Source: Nanobdellota archaeon
GTDB lineage: Archaea; Nanobdellota; Nanobdellia; Pacearchaeales; JAHJTO01
NCBI GenBank assembly: GCA_018829845.1
Contig: JAHJTO010000007.1
Coordinates: 1-33,117, forward strand
Reading direction: 5' to 3'
DNA length: 33,117 bases
The notes beneath the pieces are model-generated. The model was not told where the DNA came from and made no database searches. It worked only from the letters and a program-made list of their open reading frames with translations. Within the stretch, counting starts at the first letter, position 1. The number at the start of each line of letters is the position of its first letter. The translations under genes were made by a program, and so were the position numbers. This document shows positions 905 through 27,078 of this stretch, piece after piece.

Positions 905-934
905 AAATTTGTAGATCATTTTGTGTTTATTAAA

Positions 935-1008
935 TGTTTAAAAACAAAGAGTGTAAATAAACATTTCTCTTTGTTTTTGACACCCAAAAATTTTGAGATT
1001 TTTGAGGG
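935..1008. repeat. Twin-hairpin intergenic element, locus D
   Basis: AAAAACAAAGAG(940-951)/CTCTTTGTTTTT(967-978), then CCC-AAAAAT(983-991)/ATTTTT-GA-GGG(998-1008). Confidence 0.55.
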
Positions 1009-1022
1009 TTTATCGAGTCTCA

Positions 1023-3179
1023 TCATGTCATTCCGCCTATTGCAACCCCTGCAAGAGCAGATAATGAAACTATTGAAATGAAGGCTGCAAGCAAATACAT
1101 TAATATTCCCCTTTTCATGTTCTGGGCAATCTCATACTTCTCTCCCAACTCATCATATCCTGATTCGACTGTTACAAGAGTTATGCTTAGGATATAAATT
1201 ATTTCAACAACATATATTCCAACAATGAGCTGGATGTAATATGGTGGAATCATGCTTGAAATATTAAATAGATCAACCATCTGTCCCATTGTTCCAAATC
1301 CCTCTATTGCCTGTCCTCCTTGAGCATCCATTGCAAAAGTTAATTTATTGAGGATGATTGTGATCATTGCAGATAATCCCACAACTATTCCTGCAAGCAA
1401 TGGAGCAAGGAAAGAAATGTTGCTTTTCATACTGCTTATCACATCTGCAAGAAGATCTCTCAGCCTTTCCTCTATTTTTTGAATATTCTTTACATATTGA
1501 GAAATGCTCATCAATGCATTTGCGGCAACAGTCAATCCCTTCTTTACAGATTCTATGAGAATTTCCATGCTTGTCTTTATCAAGGCCGAAGGATAGTAGA
1601 TTATTGCTCCCCTCTGTCTGTTGAATATTGCTTCCCTAACCGACATTCCAAGCTGCGTGATGTTGGCATTCACAGTTTTGAAAAAACTTTCTGTAGGCGT
1701 CCCCCTCAAAGATTCTGCAACTCTTCCAAATGCCATCTCTGCAGGGATTCCATCCCCTAGTCTGTTTCCTAATTGGAATAATGATGAGGCAAATTCTGAT
1801 TCAAGCTTCTTTGTCTGGTCTCTGGTTTCCAAAAGCTTCTTGCTCTTTGAATTATAGCTGAGATAAAAGAACAATGCCACTCCAAGGGGGATTAACAATC
1901 CCAACAGAAGCGCAATTAGGCCAAATGGCCCAGTAGTCACATCACCAACATTTTTGAAATCAAAGATATAAAATTCACCCATTCCCGGAAATGGAATTCC
2001 TGCAGACAGGAAGGTATAATCTTTCTGCAAACCAATCAAACCGGGAAGAGGAGTATACTGAAACAGAAGAGGAATCATTCCAAGGAGTATTAAAGGTATT
2101 GCAATTGCGAGAGCATTGTAATAATGTTTCTTGCTTTTATAATATCCGTAATCAGGATTCATTTCAAGCAGATCAGATTCCCCATATCCTCCCGGCCGGT
2201 TATTCAGAATATTGCCCGCATAGTAAAATACCAGGAATGGAACAATGATATTGAAGAATAATGCAACATACCACCATCTAACTAAATCAGCAACAAGAGT
2301 TGATGCAAGAGGAAGCAAAGCAATTGCAAGTGTTGGAAGAACGATCCCAAGCATGTAAAGATTTGTCAAAGGAGATTGTATACTGTGGGTGTATTTCAAC
2401 ATCTTGTCATAAACCCCATCAAGTATGACTGACAGAGATTTTTCAAGAATTTCAAGTCTTCTTGATTCGCTTGATTCATACAAGCTGCTTTCAATTAAAT
2501 GGAATGCCTCTACAAATTCTATGCTTGATGATTTCCATTTTTCAAGATAGGCATCCAGAGCAGATTTGATTGTCCTATGTTTTCCAGTTTCAACATCCCA
2601 AAATAATTTTTTCAAATCAAGAGAAAGGGGGGGAGGAAGATGTTCTGATGCAAATTTTATTGCCAATTCAAGATTGCTTGTATGTCTCATGTAAACTACA
2701 ATATAAAGGATACATGGAACCATCTGACTTGAAGCTTTTAATCTCCATTTTTGTGCAAGACTTTTCGGAAGAGTGTTAGTATAATAGTAAACAAATCCGG
2801 CAATCATCAAAAAAAGAACTATGACTTCAATTGGAATAGTTGTTCCGGCAAGATAAAATCCTGCAAATAGCAAAGAGGCAAATAACGCTATTGAAACAAA
2901 TGCGGCAAGGGAAAATGCCGCAGCATCCTGTGGGGTAATTTCCAGATTTGCATCGTCAATATAAGTTTGAAGCCTATCTTCATCTTGCTTTTTCAATTTG
3001 AATTTTATTGTTTTTCCCACACCCCTTGCAAGCCGTTCATACAAGCTGAGAACAGGGACAATTTCTTTTTTGAATTGTAAATATTCTTTGGAATATTTTG
3101 AAGAAGTTTCAGAAGACATCGCCTTCTCTATCTGTCCCCCATATTTCTTTAGAACCTCATTTACCTTATTATCAACCAT
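1023..3179 (-). CDS. FlaJ/TadC-like type II secretion system F family membrane protein with two T2SSF-like regions
   Basis: 718-aa ORF, polytopic; two repeated T2SSF-type modules (around 'HTSNLELAIKFASEHLP' and 'RLGDGIPAEMAFGRVAESL'); adjacent to a FlaI-like ATPase. Confidence 0.8.
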   Translation of the reverse strand: MVDNKVNEVLKKYGGQIEKAMSSETSSKYSKEYLQFKKEIVPVLSLYERLARGVGKTIKFKLKKQDEDRLQTYIDDANLEITPQDAAAFSLAAFVSIALFASLLFAGFYLAGTTIPIEVIVLFLMIAGFVYYYTNTLPKSLAQKWRLKASSQMVPCILYIVVYMRHTSNLELAIKFASEHLPPPLSLDLKKLFWDVETGKHRTIKSALDAYLEKWKSSSIEFVEAFHLIESSLYESSESRRLEILEKSLSVILDGVYDKMLKYTHSIQSPLTNLYMLGIVLPTLAIALLPLASTLVADLVRWWYVALFFNIIVPFLVFYYAGNILNNRPGGYGESDLLEMNPDYGYYKSKKHYYNALAIAIPLILLGMIPLLFQYTPLPGLIGLQKDYTFLSAGIPFPGMGEFYIFDFKNVGDVTTGPFGLIALLLGLLIPLGVALFFYLSYNSKSKKLLETRDQTKKLESEFASSLFQLGNRLGDGIPAEMAFGRVAESLRGTPTESFFKTVNANITQLGMSVREAIFNRQRGAIIYYPSALIKTSMEILIESVKKGLTVAANALMSISQYVKNIQKIEERLRDLLADVISSMKSNISFLAPLLAGIVVGLSAMITIILNKLTFAMDAQGGQAIEGFGTMGQMVDLFNISSMIPPYYIQLIVGIYVVEIIYILSITLVTVESGYDELGEKYEIAQNMKRGILMYLLAAFISIVSLSALAGVAIGGMT

Positions 3180-3196: not shown

Positions 3197-3250
3197 ATGT
3201 TCGAAAAGCTTTGCTTTTCGACATGCCTGGAAGCAATTTGCTTCTAAGCA
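3197..3250. repeat. Twin-hairpin intergenic element, locus C
   Basis: ATG(T)TCGAAAAGC-TTT-GCTTTTCGACAT (3197-3224) then CATGCC..GAAGC-AATTT-GCTTC-TA-AGCA (3222-3250). Confidence 0.6.
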
Positions 3251-3343
3251 CTACTCAAAACAAGGAAAAAATGGGTTAAATACTTTATTCATGGTAAAAA
3301 ACATCCGCTGATTGTTTTTGCCATGCCCAATATCAAAAAAGAA

Positions 3344-6300
3344 TCAGATTTTGGCCTTTTTGATCTCATTCTTGAACCAATCATTCCAATCCCTAAAAAC
3401 TCTTCTTCCTTCAGGCAATCCCACTTCCTTCGAAACCTTATCAGAAAATTGATGGAAAGCATTATTGCTCTTAACCACAAATGGGGCCTCTATGAGCTGT
3501 GGCATTGAATGTTGTATGGATTGGTTCACAAGTTCTTCTTTTATCCTTGCCCTGAGCGTTATATTGTCCCATATTGCATCCCAGTTTCCTGCCCAGCCTT
3601 TAACACTCCCAGCTATTGATTTTATGATCTCACTTTCCCCATTTATCAAATCAGCAGTAGGTTCTAATTCATCCTTATGAACATTGTATTTCATGAGATC
3701 TGTAAATCCTTTTTCTTCCAAAGGATCTTTTGTCCAATTTTTTCCAACTTCTGTCAAAGAAACAACTCTTTTTTTGCTATGCAATCCATCTGGAGTTTTT
3801 ATTGGATTTGCAACAAGAATAATATCTGTCGCTTTAAAGCTTGTTATTGGAACTCCGAGATCATTAACTACTCTGTCAAATATTGCATAGGGTGATGCTC
3901 CATGTATTGTTCCTGCAACTACATTTGCGAGAGCTCCGATTCTCATTGCTTCATAAAGTGCTTTGGCCTCAACGCTTCTTACTTCTCCAACTATCAAACT
4001 TGAATCTCCAAGTCTTAAACTCGTTCTGATCCCTTCATCAGCAGGCATCTCAGCAGTTTCTTTCAACAAAGCAGAACGGACCTTCATCCTAAGAATATTA
4101 TATCCAATTTTTCTCATCGAATCAACTGGCATTTCCAGAGTGTTATGCGCGACAATATTCTCACAGATAAAATTCTCATTTCCATGAACAGAAATATCAT
4201 AAACATATCCTTCTTCACTGACTTTTTTAGCACTTTTTACCTTATCCCAAAATATTTCCGCTTTAACAACACCTCTTAAACAGTCTATTGGATTTGTATA
4301 GACTCCTTTTGGAATAACTTCCAACATTTTTGTCAAATGAGCCCTCCCTAAATTGTTCTCTCGAATGATATAATCATGTTTGTTAAACTTCTCCCCAAGG
4401 ATCTCACTTAGCTCCTCCTTTACTTCTAAAGAAAGAGGAATAACATCTGAGATGTCATGTGTCTGCAGCCTAGCACATAACTTATCTAACCTTTCTTGTT
4501 TAAAATCTGTTAAAAATCCTATATTTTCTTTGAACTTATTTATCATTATTGTAGAACCAATTCGGCAAGAGAGGGCATTATCTTTTCCATAAGGGGTATT
4601 TTTTGGCTCTAAAGGTACGGCAGATTTTCTTAATATAATGCCAAACCTTAATAATAAACTTGTAATACCTTCAACTAATTCTTTTGAGCAAGAAGAAAAT
4701 GTAACTTCTTTATCAGAGGCACATCCATCTCCGCTGAAGAATCCTTTTAACAGCGCTCCCGCTTGCTTGTCTGACAAGTTATAAGCCCACTCTGGGAGCC
4801 CTTTGGTATATGAATTGCCATTTAATCCCAGCAACTTCTGCATGATCTCTTTCAATAAAGAAGAATTTATCATTGAAGAAAACTTATCAGAATGAATTTT
4901 CACACTAAAACCCAGCCTATCTGCTATTTTCTTTACGACTTCTTTATTTTCCTTTTCCTCAACTGAAATGATAACGCTTCCTTGATCATAACAGCCATCA
5001 GCCAGCCATAATCCGATAAAATTCAAAAACATTTCATCAAGTTCGATGATTATGGGGATCTTCCCAGACGCCCCGTCACCCTTCAAATACAAGTCTTCAT
5101 TGTTTATTTTTTCTTTTATTTTTTCAAAAATTCCCAAAGGTAAAATTTTCTTGATTGTCCAATTCTGAATTGTAGATTTTTTATATCCTAAAGAATAACC
5201 CAAATTAAACAACTCTTTTCTATTTTCTTTAACATAAATCTCAATACCTTTTCCTAAAACAAACAAATTTTTATTGATTTTCTTTAGTGTATCTATATCT
5301 TCAAGTAAATTAATGTTTTCTAAAGAATTCGTAAAAGGTAGTCTTGAGGGAATTGCTATAAAATCTCCTTCCTTTAACTCTTTGGATTTTATGGCCCTCA
5401 AAATCTTTTTTTCATCTAAGGTAAACAAAGAATGGTCTTCTGTAACCTTGACTTTCTTTCCAGAGGTAGTTCTGATTTCATAAATTGGTTTATTGACCTT
5501 ATGTCTGATAAATTTGCTTGCTTTGGACAAAACAACCTTGCCCTTACCATTCACAGAAAAAATTTCTACATTATCAACATTTATCTCCTTCTCTCTTCCA
5601 TCAATATCAAGAAAACCATTCTTCTCTATTTTCTCGTCTATAAGCTTGCCTATTGTTGTCTTTCTAAACCGGCCATTCTCTTTAACAATCATCCCAGCAT
5701 CTCCCGTAACACTGTCTTCAATAACTATTACTCTCGTTCTTGGCATTATCTCAAGCATTAACGATCCAAGCAAAGATGTATTATGAGCAAAAAACCCATT
5801 TGCTACAAAATTCTGATATGGCTCAACCGTAAAGTCATAAACCCACTTTTCTTTTGAGTCCACTTTTTCAACACTCTTAACCCTATCCCAGAAAACGTCA
5901 GAATTTGCGAGGTTAAAAGAGTTATTTAAAATATCTTTTGATCCCTTCGAAATAATTTTTTTATGAATCTCCTTTATCTTCTCTGAAATGAGTTTTTTTG
6001 TTTTTATCCTGGGTTTATAGACATTATTAAAAAAGTTGGAAATTGTACCAATAGACAGGTCTCCAGTCAAGTTAGAATTTTGGATGTTTAGAATCTGTCT
6101 AAACTTTTTAAATAAGCCCATATCAGAATTCTCATCCAGGTGAGATATTTCATTATTTAATTTTTCAATCTCATTAAATCTCTTCTGATAAAACTCGACT
6201 AAAATTTTAAACCATTTCCTTGTAGCATTATACTGGTTGTTTTCATGTGCCCAATAATCCCTGGTAGTTAATTTTCTTACGCCCAGGGGGTTAACTCTTA

Positions 6301-12243: not shown

Positions 12244-12273
12244 CATTCCAGAAAGTTCCACCTTCTGAGAATG
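12244..12273. repeat. Single hairpin of the CATNC-C / GA-GNATG type, locus E
   Basis: CATTC-C-AGAA...TTCT-GA-GAATG. Confidence 0.5.
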
Positions 12274-12329
12274 GTTAAAATCAAAGATTTCAAAGCATTT
12301 TTAAAAACGAATAAACTTCAAAAGGTAGA

Positions 12330-13016
12330 ATGATAACAAAAAAAGAGGTTCTATCAATATTCCTTGCAGCAATAATTTTAGGTTACATCGAATCATTCAC
12401 AAAATTCACATGGATTAACTGGCTCATTTTTTCTGGAATGGGTCTTGCAATAGTCGGAGTGCATGTTTTGGGACAGAAAATCTGCGCGACGGTTTTTGAT
12501 TCGGATACTGAAACTTCAATTTGGAAGATGGAAAGATTCTGGTTTCCTCAAAGCAGATATTTCAAAACCCCTATTCCCACGGGGCTTCTAATTCCACTCT
12601 CAGCACTGTTCATATCTTTTGGATATTTCAAATTTATGACACTCATAACATTCGAAGCATCCCCGCTTCCACATAAAATAAAACCCTTCTCAAAAATCAC
12701 AGAATATCAATTAGCAATAATTGCTCTGAGCGGATCAATTGCAAATATGGTAATTGCATTTTTTTCATTCCTTTTTGGATTCAATGAATTTGCAATGCTA
12801 AATATTTACTTTGCATTCTTCAGCCTTATTCCATTCTCAACCCTTGATGGAACAAAAGTATTTTTTGGGTCAAGGCTTCTTTGGCTGTTTTCATTCTCAT
12901 TTGTGCTTGCACTTATAATATTATTTGAAGTTGCAGGGCTTTGGCCAACAATAATTTCAGCAGTGATTATTGCCCTTGCCATAATGGTCGCTTACTTTTT
13001 CTCATTTGAAGCCTAA
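12330..13016 (+). CDS. M50 (site-2 protease)-like membrane protein with degenerate HExxH motif
   Basis: 'VGVHVLGQKICA' in place of HExxH; 'NIYFAFFSLIPFSTLDGTKVFFG' resembles the NPDG-type M50 motif; polytopic. Confidence 0.55.
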   Translation: MITKKEVLSIFLAAIILGYIESFTKFTWINWLIFSGMGLAIVGVHVLGQKICATVFDSDTETSIWKMERFWFPQSRYFKTPIPTGLLIPLSALFISFGYFKFMTLITFEASPLPHKIKPFSKITEYQLAIIALSGSIANMVIAFFSFLFGFNEFAMLNIYFAFFSLIPFSTLDGTKVFFGSRLLWLFSFSFVLALIILFEVAGLWPTIISAVIIALAIMVAYFFSFEA

Positions 13017-23784: not shown

Positions 23785-23834
23785 CCTTTTATCTTGATAA
23801 AAGCGTTTTTATATTTGATTATAATTTAAAACAT

Positions 23835-23889
23835 ATGTCTAGAAATCAAAGATTTCGGAACATGCCAAAAACGGGAGTTTTTTAGCATG
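23835..23889. repeat. Twin-hairpin intergenic element, locus B
   Basis: ATGT..GAAATC-AAA-GATTTC..ACAT then CATGC-C-AAAAAC-GGGA-GTTTTT-TA-GCATG; last ATG is the start codon of the OB-fold ORF. Confidence 0.6.
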
Positions 23890-24219
23890 TCGCGTTTACA
23901 ATCCATTGCAATCATAACTGCCATAATAGGGATAATTGCAATAATTTTCCTTTCAAGTAATCTTGAACCAAAAGAAATGATGATTGTGGAGATAGACCGT
24001 GGAATGGTGGGGGAATATGTAAAGGTGATAGGGAATATTTCCAATATTAAACATTCAAAGATCACTTCATTCACAATAAAAGACGATTCTTCAGATATTT
24101 ACGCATTTAGCTATGAAAACCTTGATTTAGATAAAGGGAGATATGAAATCATTGGAAAGGTTAATGAATACTACGGAAGTTTAGAAATTGAGATAAACAA
24201 AATGGAGAACATAATATAA
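23887..24219 (+). CDS. Membrane-anchored OB-fold-like protein
   Basis: N-terminal TM plus 'GEYVKVIGNISNIKHSKITSFTIKDDSSDIYAFSYENLDLDKGRYEIIGKVNEY' OB-fold pattern; TAATG overlap with the next gene. Confidence 0.6.
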   Translation: MSRLQSIAIITAIIGIIAIIFLSSNLEPKEMMIVEIDRGMVGEYVKVIGNISNIKHSKITSFTIKDDSSDIYAFSYENLDLDKGRYEIIGKVNEYYGSLEIEINKMENII

Positions 24220-25247
24220 TGGGGATGTATTTTTCGACCTTCATCTCAGGAATTCAGGAGTTTATTCCAGGAGTTTTAAGAAAGAACATAAGAGATGTTA
24301 AAATAACTCGTCTTCTAGATGGTGCAATTTTATATCAAACCTCTGCAAATATCGAATCTATAAAGAATATCAGATTTTTTAATAATTCATTTGAGGTTAT
24401 CAAAACATTTGAAGATCCAAGGGATATTGATGATATGATTAAAGAGTGTATTGAAGATCGAAGCATTGGGAATGAGATTTCTGCGACCATTGGAAAATCA
24501 AATCAAGGAAAAACGTTTAGAATAATTACTTCCAAAGAAAACCGGCTCATCTCAGCGGACAAAAAATTTATTGATAAATTAGAAAGTAAGATTATGAGGA
24601 ACGGAGTTCAAGTAGATAGAAGCGGCCCGGATATAGAATTTTGGTTTTTGCAGAGAAGAGAAAATATTGGAATTTTTATGATGAGGCTCACAAAACATCG
24701 GGCCTATGAAAAAGTCTTACAAAAAGGGGAGCTAAGGCCGGAAATTTCAAGTATAATGTGCCTTCTTTCTGAACCCGGTAGGGCAGATATCGTGATAGAT
24801 CCCTTCTGTGGCTATGGCTCAATTATAATTGAAAGATCAAAGATACCCCATCATAAAATTATTGGGATAGACAGCGATCGAAAAAAGATATTTGACCTTA
24901 AACGCAAGACCAAGGGGAAAGGCATCGAAATTTATCCATCAAACTCTCTTGATCTTTCAAGAATCAAATCTGATTCGATTGATAAGATTATCACCGATCC
25001 CCCCTGGGGGATATATGAAAAAATAAACTCTAAAGAATTTTATGAAAGGATGCTCAAGGAGTTCCTCCGGGTGCTTAGGCCGGGGGGGATATGTGTAATC
25101 CTTACCTCACAAAAGGAACTCACTCCTGAATTGGCAAAAAAGCTTAAGATTAAAATTGAAGGAAGATTTGATATTCTTGTTTCTGGAAAGAAAGCGGCAT
25201 TATTTAAGATGAGGAAGCCTCAAACAAAAGATTTAAGAGTTAACTGA
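24219..25247 (+). CDS. RNA methyltransferase-like protein (Trm11/Trm14/UPF0020-type Rossmann MTase)
   Basis: 'VIDPFCGYGSIIIE', 'DPPWGIYEK' catalytic motif, N-terminal THUMP-like region. Confidence 0.8.
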   Translation: MGMYFSTFISGIQEFIPGVLRKNIRDVKITRLLDGAILYQTSANIESIKNIRFFNNSFEVIKTFEDPRDIDDMIKECIEDRSIGNEISATIGKSNQGKTFRIITSKENRLISADKKFIDKLESKIMRNGVQVDRSGPDIEFWFLQRRENIGIFMMRLTKHRAYEKVLQKGELRPEISSIMCLLSEPGRADIVIDPFCGYGSIIIERSKIPHHKIIGIDSDRKKIFDLKRKTKGKGIEIYPSNSLDLSRIKSDSIDKIITDPPWGIYEKINSKEFYERMLKEFLRVLRPGGICVILTSQKELTPELAKKLKIKIEGRFDILVSGKKAALFKMRKPQTKDLRVN

Positions 25248-25261
25248 GGATTTCTTAAAAT

Positions 25262-25320
25262 ATGGCAAAAATCACAAATGTTTTTGGCATGCCAGAAATC
25301 TCGAAGGATTTCTGAGCATG
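25262..25320. repeat. Twin-hairpin intergenic element, locus A
   Basis: ATGGCAAAAA-TCACAAATG-TTTTTGGCAT then CATGC-C-AGAAATC-TCGAAG-GATTTCT-GA-GCATG; last ATG is the start codon of the sulfatase ORF. Confidence 0.6.
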
Positions 25321-27078
25321 GCTGAAAATCAATTTTTTACATTACAACACTATCCCTATAAGCTCCTACTTTTTTCAGGGATATTTCTAGTAATATTAAA
25401 ACTGTTTTTTTCTGGAAATTATCTGGCCATAATCCTCAATTCAATGTTGGAGTTTACAATCTTGCTCTTTTTGTATTCCCTCCTTTTTATTGGAGAAAAA
25501 AAGATAATCGAAAGGAAAGAGTCTTTCCGGATAGGGATATATCTCACATTTTATGCACTATTTTTTATGAACCTATTCATCTTTTCAGTGAACTCTTTCT
25601 TCTTTGATGATTCTCTTATCATGAAATATTCTCTTTCTAATTTTAATATGGGGATTGTAGGGTTTTTCTTCAAAAGCATGATACCAATAAAATATCTGCT
25701 TCTAGCCCCATCGATTATTGTATTGCTTCTTGCAGTTTCTTTTATTGATTTGAATAAACTTGCCAAAATAGAACCCCATTTGAAAAAAGTTTTTATTATA
25801 ATTGTTATTCTTTCAATAACTCTCTTTTTATTTAGATTTGATTCTATTTCAAACATTTATGCCAATACTGTCCATGAACGAGTTTTAGAAGATCCAAGAA
25901 TGAAAATCTCATTAGATAAAGCAACCATCTCCCAAACAAAATACTCTTCAGGGGATTTTGATAAACAGATAATGAACTATTCAGAATATTCTCTTCCCAG
26001 GGGACAAAGGGTTTTGATGTTTGTAGTGGAACAGACCTCATATAATACTTTTTTAGAAGAGATGAATGAAATCCCAGTAGAAAGGAATTTTTTTGAAATA
26101 GTAAAGCCAAATACTCATATTTTCACAAATCACTACACTAATAACCAAGATAGCATGACTGCTATTTGGACAATGCTTAATTCTAACTTCATCCCCTTTG
26201 AGTGTTATATGACTGATTGGAATAAATATTATGGTTTTGTTTTAGGAACGAATAACCTTATTGATTTATTCAATAATCAAGGATATGAAACACATACTGT
26301 CGCATCAGTTTACGCCTCTGGATTGATAATGGGGATATATAATTGGACAAATGTAACCTATATTCAACCTGGAACAGATTCTGCCGGTTTTTTCTGCCCA
26401 GAAGATTTTGAGTATGAGAAAGGTTGTGAGGATAACATTATTCTAGAAGATGTAAAAAATGTAATCGATAATTCTAATCCTAATGGGTTATTCATGGTTC
26501 AAGAATTTATATATGGGCATGGAACCTCCTATGAAGAGCAGTTTCATAAAACGCGAACAGAGTATTACAATGAGTATCTGTTAAATCTTTATGATTATAT
26601 GAAACAAAATAATCTTTTGGAGGATACAACAATTGTGATACTGGCAGACCATGGAGAGAAAGGATATATGGATAAATCACTTTGGAATTATCAAACTCCT
26701 TTAATGATTATAAATAGCAATTTAAAATACCAAGAGATTGATGGGCTCTATTCCACAATCGATTTTAAGGATATTCTTTTATCTTATCTTCAAAAAACAG
26801 AATTGAAACAAGAAAGCCATTATGTTTACTTCGTTGGACAAACCCAGGGTTCTGAAATGGGATATATTGAAAATAATGGAGATTATTTTATCGCAAAGAG
26901 TTCCGGAGAGGATTCATTTAAAATTCGAGATGTTAATGGTCTGAATGATTCCGAAATTGAAGAAAAATTGAAGGTATTTGTAAAATATCAAGAGGGAGCA
27001 ATTGTAAAAAGCAGCGTAAAGAATTATTGGTGTCAATTGTGTGATCAGAATGCCAGAAAAGCAGGAATATATAATTAA
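25318..27078 (+). CDS. LtaS/phosphoglycerol transferase-like membrane sulfatase
   Basis: N-terminal multi-TM region; 'RVLMFVVEQTSYNTF', 'TTIVILADHGEKGYMDKSLWNYQTPLMI'. Confidence 0.78.
   Translation: MAENQFFTLQHYPYKLLLFSGIFLVILKLFFSGNYLAIILNSMLEFTILLFLYSLLFIGEKKIIERKESFRIGIYLTFYALFFMNLFIFSVNSFFFDDSLIMKYSLSNFNMGIVGFFFKSMIPIKYLLLAPSIIVLLLAVSFIDLNKLAKIEPHLKKVFIIIVILSITLFLFRFDSISNIYANTVHERVLEDPRMKISLDKATISQTKYSSGDFDKQIMNYSEYSLPRGQRVLMFVVEQTSYNTFLEEMNEIPVERNFFEIVKPNTHIFTNHYTNNQDSMTAIWTMLNSNFIPFECYMTDWNKYYGFVLGTNNLIDLFNNQGYETHTVASVYASGLIMGIYNWTNVTYIQPGTDSAGFFCPEDFEYEKGCEDNIILEDVKNVIDNSNPNGLFMVQEFIYGHGTSYEEQFHKTRTEYYNEYLLNLYDYMKQNNLLEDTTIVILADHGEKGYMDKSLWNYQTPLMIINSNLKYQEIDGLYSTIDFKDILLSYLQKTELKQESHYVYFVGQTQGSEMGYIENNGDYFIAKSSGEDSFKIRDVNGLNDSEIEEKLKVFVKYQEGAIVKSSVKNYWCQLCDQNARKAGIYN

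Follow-up and report, generated by a model that had tools for sequence, protein, structure and literature searches.

The window, the whole 33,117-nucleotide stretch of archaeal DNA analysed here, carries hairpin loci A to E and one weak additional copy, which adjoin genes and small open reading frames (ORFs) as follows.

25262..25320, + strand: locus A, a twin hairpin at a gene start (folding z-score -3.9; covariance-model E 1.9e-10), with hairpin 1 at 25262-25290 and hairpin 2 at 25288-25320
25262..25315, + strand: locus A linker ORF, encoding MAKITNVFGMPEISKDF and ending in a TGA stop 2 nt ahead of the gene ATG
25304..25308, + strand: Shine-Dalgarno-like AAGGA in the loop of locus A hairpin 2, read from the sequence
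25318..27078, + strand: 586-aa gene with a Sulfatase domain (PF00884); locus A ends on its start codon
23835..23889, + strand: locus B, a twin hairpin at a gene start (covariance-model E 4.2e-8; also folded), with hairpin 1 at 23835-23863 and hairpin 2 at 23861-23889
23835..23885, + strand: locus B linker ORF, encoding MSRNQRFRNMPKTGVF and ending in a TAG stop 1 nt ahead of the gene ATG
23806..23813, + strand: TATA-like TTTTTATA, centred ~25 nt upstream of the locus B linker ATG
23887..24219, + strand: 110-aa OB-fold gene; locus B ends on its start codon
3197..3250, + strand: locus C, an orphan copy on the strand opposite to the flanking genes, with no gene at its end
3197-3247, + strand: 16-codon ORF of locus C
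3290..3369, - strand: weak extra copy upstream of gene 1023-3179 (covariance model, 31.6 bits)
916..1026, - strand: 36-codon linker ORF of locus D, enclosing two divergent hairpins (935-1008)
12244..12273, + strand: locus E hairpin, CATTCC..GAATG
12271..12333, + strand: locus E linker ORF, encoding MVKIKDFKAFLKTNKLQKVE, whose TGA stop overlaps the ATG of gene 12330-13016 as ATGA

A small ORF lies in or next to each of loci A, B, D and E, its stop overlapping or touching the start codon of the next gene. The locus D ORF begins in the ATGATGA that ends gene 1023-3179 and itself ends as ATGA on the start of gene 919-752. At locus B, the position of the TATA-like box suggests that the linker ORF is leaderless. 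Elsewhere on the minus strand, at 150-919, small membrane genes with pilin-like N-termini (KSKKGIAFETLVKW) are joined by ATGA overlaps (a 55-aa gene at 919-752, then 755-150).

For loci A, B and C, we recovered exactly the coordinates and the architecture given by the first-pass annotation, in which hairpin 1 closes with ATG/CAT and that same CAT opens hairpin 2. Loci D (935-1008) and E (12244-12273), which it had added to the group, are real but looser versions, with D lying on the minus strand. Its restriction of the internal loop to GA or TA opposite an invariant C did not hold, as the structural scan found C facing N-A, where N can be any of the four bases. Hairpins 1 and 2 run in opposite polarity, which makes the whole element a palindrome around GGCATGCC; symmetric copies read ATGCTTAGAAATC..GATTTCTGGCATGCCAGAAAC..GTTTCTAAGCAT. 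The pivot varies with compensation (CACGC/GCGTG, CATCC/GGATG, CACAC/GTGTG, CGTAC/GTATG), and the first three of these compensated pivots recur in longer copies, which are chains of up to four hairpins. Elements measure ~51-57 bp, or ~120 bp with four hairpins, and individual copies reach folding z-scores as low as -4.5. In two multi-hairpin copies (L115:7313-7419 and L118:4069-4151), CATGC/GCATG pairs around CATCC/GGATG, and this nesting makes a cloverleaf-like fold possible.

Arms rich in A:T pair easily, and hairpins of this kind could in principle be chance products of AT-rich DNA. The pattern CATGCC N{4,30} NAGCATG, of which the inner stem is not a part, nevertheless matches 26 sites in the 848-kb window genome (G000) and none in the reversed control. 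The inner arms of one copy pair over a mean of 5.15 consecutive bp, against 1.62 when arms are swapped between copies, and 0 of 20000 swaps did as well; the variable stems therefore stay complementary copy by copy, which bears out the claim that complementarity is kept although stem sequences differ. A structural-only scan found 135 units versus 22 in shuffled sequence, and a covariance model built from 19 copies, partly gene-start copies, located 107 distinct non-overlapping sites in 450 kb of the window genome, the portion of its 848 kb that our copy statistics cover. With the reversed, shuffled and arm-swap controls and the relatedness of copies bounded by the element ends (below) all against it, chance is refuted and retains a negligible probability. 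Rfam gave no match above the gathering score in the window.

All-versus-all comparison yielded many copy pairs that are 85-93% identical, with ends coinciding with those of the element. Three pairs in the window genome are 88-91% alike inside, whereas their flanks are just 25-37% alike. In G008, a genome of the same order, identical 58-nt copies precede two different genes, and the identity stops 4 and 3 nt outside the element. Two orphan copies of that genome (L248, L251) share identity for 54 nt upstream of the element, and so both belong to a larger repeat. The covariance model matched at least once, at E 0.05, in 132 of 371 genomes of the phylum; relaxed filters gave 91 matches in G008 and 6-15 in each of seven other carriers. 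Most named pattern matches belong to genomes of Pacearchaeota, Woesearchaeota and other Nanoarchaeota, those in bacteria are without the twin-hairpin architecture, and the strict pattern had no match in viral contigs. The window itself comes from a Pacearchaeota-related nanoarchaeon. Judged by sequence comparison, the twin hairpins are a dispersed repeat family whose copies are related by descent and which also occurs in other Nanoarchaeia.

The family is strongly associated with gene starts. With genes taken from simple ORF calls, a gene ATG lies at, or at most 13 nt from, the last three bases of the element at 47 of 107 sites (44%). The first ATG of the element begins a linker ORF that stays open across both hairpins and spans ~15-24 codons in two-hairpin copies and ~33-38 in four-hairpin copies. 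Its stop falls at -3 to +7 of the gene ATG in 31 of 38 gene-start copies versus 7 of 43 others (p=2.5e-9), counts that are not independent because the copies are mutually related, and to which the element's own end (TAAGCATG or TAGCATG) contributes by holding a stop, with the non-gene copies as control. Because gene-start copies were among those used to train the covariance model, we repeated the tests with the training copies removed and obtained 21/26 (p=1.4e-7). In other genomes the stop is so placed in 24/31 versus 7/42 (p=2.3e-7), or in 17/24 once training copies are removed (p=1.7e-5); two control frames have a stop at that place in 0/31 and 6/31. The stop takes the form TAAGCATG, TGAGCATG, TAGCATG or an ATGA overlap. 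Copies that have no stop immediately ahead of the ATG mostly precede genes beginning with ATGA, the TGA of which serves as their stop (18/40 versus 6/36, p=0.013).

A second signal lies in the loop of the last hairpin, where a Shine-Dalgarno motif ~9 nt ahead of the gene ATG is present in 39 of 47 gene-start copies versus 7 of 60 others (p=3e-14), an enrichment replicated in other genomes (31/38 versus 14/61). At the upstream end, the linker ATG overlaps the preceding stop as ATGA in 14 of 47 copies and lies within -2 to +4 of it in ~20. Several copies that have no close upstream gene carry a TATA-like box ~25 nt before the first ATG, which suggests leaderless linker ORFs. The linker peptide itself is not conserved: depending on the copy, the pivot encodes MP, CQ/CR or HA, with all three frames in use. 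Exceptions are three gene-start copies that have no good linker ORF (C64:6190, C28:7496, C1:867) and two that continue into the gene in frame (C90:3637, C56:18989). The description "REP-like" fits loosely, for a dispersed, structured palindromic repeat in both orientations, but it missed the start codon and linker ORF. The argument from varied orientation to a DNA-level role fails, because gene-start copies are strand-specific in their Shine-Dalgarno motif, ORF and stop, whereas orphan copies have none of these.

Relatives supply the corresponding empty sites. At the S17-L14 junction, the two genes overlap as ATGA (-4) in 11 of 29 relatives and lie at most 12 nt apart in 11 more, and none of the 29 has a copy; in the window genome, two ATGAs enclose 49 nt of element. 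The L14 query, approximate in its C-terminal half, served just to locate the L14 loci. At S5-L30, the window genome and G183 each have a copy, and most others have none, with the genes overlapping or touching. In G009 the same junction (L165) shows ATGATAATTGTA duplicated around a spacer, possibly an insertion remnant. Synteny at NusG-L11 was too poorly conserved for such a comparison.

Thirteen further copies lie inside ORFs of at least 100 codons, and their length is divisible by 3 in 10 of the 13 versus 28 of 94 copies elsewhere (p=0.0015). In Bud32, the KEOPS kinase (L047:15801-16532), a 120-nt four-hairpin copy supplies 40 residues in the catalytic core; TTSNMIY precedes the insert and KKLYFIDFGLG follows it, and the PDB homologue 8unk_B is uninterrupted there. 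For a dihydrouridine synthase, an N6AMT1-like methyltransferase and an RNA uracil methyltransferase, alignments stop or split near the element peptide, and those of a thioredoxin-reductase-like protein and a CCA-adding enzyme are gapped at it. In an FtsY homologue (L047:4849-6057), the charged N-terminal region contains a copy in frame (MLGSKASGIAKNHQDSSA).

We favor, at a probability of roughly 75%, the reading that the element is a high-copy, non-autonomous palindromic repeat of Nanoarchaeia, built of hairpins in series, whose persistence rests on its being translatable. After completing the upstream gene, or on initiating at a leaderless transcript, a ribosome would translate the linker ORF and in doing so open hairpin 2, which hides the gene AUG, with the Shine-Dalgarno motif exposed; it would then terminate at the gene AUG and reinitiate there. 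We infer this chain of unwinding, termination and reinitiation from the coupling established in archaea (PMC6728339). Termination and reinitiation at the AUG would make insertion at a start codon nearly neutral. Selection would keep frame, stop and Shine-Dalgarno motif in gene-start copies and leave orphan copies free of such constraint. The repeats appear to be harmless because ribosomes can read through them.

The same features could instead describe a regulatory 5' leader, an attenuator or translational switch in which the CAUG pivot pairs with either the linker AUG or the gene AUG, placing hairpins 1 and 2 in competition and leaving the choice of start to a signal. The pivot is indeed complementary to both ATGs, a loop holds the Shine-Dalgarno motif and a stem the AUG, and in the L037 fold stem 1 can alternatively pair with 2'. 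The downstream genes are nonetheless unrelated housekeeping genes, which we take from their N-termini to be L11, L14, L30, SecY, Rad50-like, RNA polymerase B-like and aspartyl-tRNA synthetase-like, and so form no regulon for one signal; a riboswitch-like regulon was ruled out on this ground. Relatives have the same junctions without copies, and many copies are found away from gene starts or within ORFs. We consider a regulatory leader unlikely. Similarly improbable are bidirectional transcription terminators or mRNA-processing or stabilising hairpins, although many orphan copies are intergenic, symmetric and match on both strands. Gene-start copies occupy operon-internal starts, where termination would harm, and carry a Shine-Dalgarno motif and ORF, and most intragenic copies preserve frame.

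Two bacterial repeat families offer the closest parallels to this translatable repeat, and by analogy the archaeal element would work like both. Mycobacterial interspersed repetitive units (MIRUs) are described as mobile, insert at start codons and have an internal ORF coupled at -4 (ATGA) spacing, with little effect (PMC12548453). The archaeal repeat resembles them in being dispersed, in lying at start codons (47/107), in carrying an internal ORF that is coupled to the gene (stop 31/38), and in its insertion at stop/start overlap sites, as at the S17-L14 junctions that are empty in relatives. It differs in being archaeal, in forming a palindrome of two to four hairpins with compensated stems, in having the Shine-Dalgarno motif in a hairpin loop, in stops that may also sit 1-3 nt before the ATG, and in its intragenic and orphan copies. 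Rickettsia palindromic elements (RPEs) are in-frame palindromic inserts in unrelated protein genes of a reduced genome (PMC10969869). Like them, the archaeal element is a palindromic hairpin repeat found in frame inside conserved genes (10/13; Bud32), but RPEs are ~150 bp long versus ~51-57 bp (~120 bp with four hairpins), and most archaeal copies are not intragenic, 44% being at start codons. RPEs also keep one conserved peptide frame and the archaeal element does not, and the likeness to both families is one of features, not of alignment, so we file it under neither. ATGA and TAATG-type stop/start overlaps serve coupling in archaea and bacteria (PMC6728339, PMC10666635). The archaeal element shares the ATGA-type overlaps and differs from ordinary termination-reinitiation in that a repeat-borne mini-ORF bridges two genes and can couple at both ends.

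Translatable repeats of the MIRU and RPE type were already known from bacteria; as far as the open-access literature searched shows, this is the first such family described in archaea. One element unites two harmless modes, the start-codon-coupled linker and the in-frame gene insert, and its copies abound in an archaeal lineage that is among the most reduced. With this element, the adaptation of selfish repeats to dense operons becomes testable, and dozens of evolved reinitiation sites are available as natural replicates. Repeat-derived stretches, which annotation can misread, are present at many nanoarchaeal gene starts and in some proteins (Bud32, FtsY).

How the copies move leads to a further alternative. 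REP, BIME and REPIN elements likewise form inverted pairs of irregular hairpins in high copy number, often between genes, and a REP/REPIN element moved in trans, by a RAYT or an IS200/IS605 Y1 transposase acting on single-stranded hairpins, would fit the inverted pairs and irregular stem seen here. A Y1 transposase (PF01797) was detected in G000 and G008, the two genomes with the most copies, as well as in G282, G436 and G265. Against this, PF01797 is missing at search sensitivity from 18 of 22 other sampled genomes, carriers included (G001, G002, G183, G192, G215 and G219). The TnpA of the window genome is short and IS200-like, its nearest model match is ~800 nt off, and the flanks of the IS605-type genes there differ from the element ends (MITE comparison). 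The archaeal stems, in contrast to REP/REPIN stems, vary with compensation and are strongly associated with start codons, and a RAYT-like partner is missing from most carriers sampled. We regard such mobilization as doubtful, and rejected RAYT as the mobiliser because PF01797 is absent from most carriers, keeping a low-probability link since the two copy-richest genomes have it.

Searches of the sampled genomes for Y1 transposases, reverse transcriptases and TnpB found no mobiliser: of 12 genomes sampled, 6 have reverse transcriptase (PF00078), which does not clearly track copy number, and TnpB is above the cut-off in G000, G008 and G007 only. Tentatively, the translatable repeat may represent a new class of mobile element, mobilized by a hairpin-acting, start-codon-preferring machinery and bringing its own translation unit (start, stop and loop Shine-Dalgarno motif), which could colonise reduced archaeal operons with little harm; the cell may in turn use the CAUG pivot as tunable gene coupling. 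The window genome has a single IS200-like TnpA at L132 (C35), and a TnpB gene is located at L047:3559-4752. Among the sampled genomes, TnpA presence tends to accompany high element copy number.
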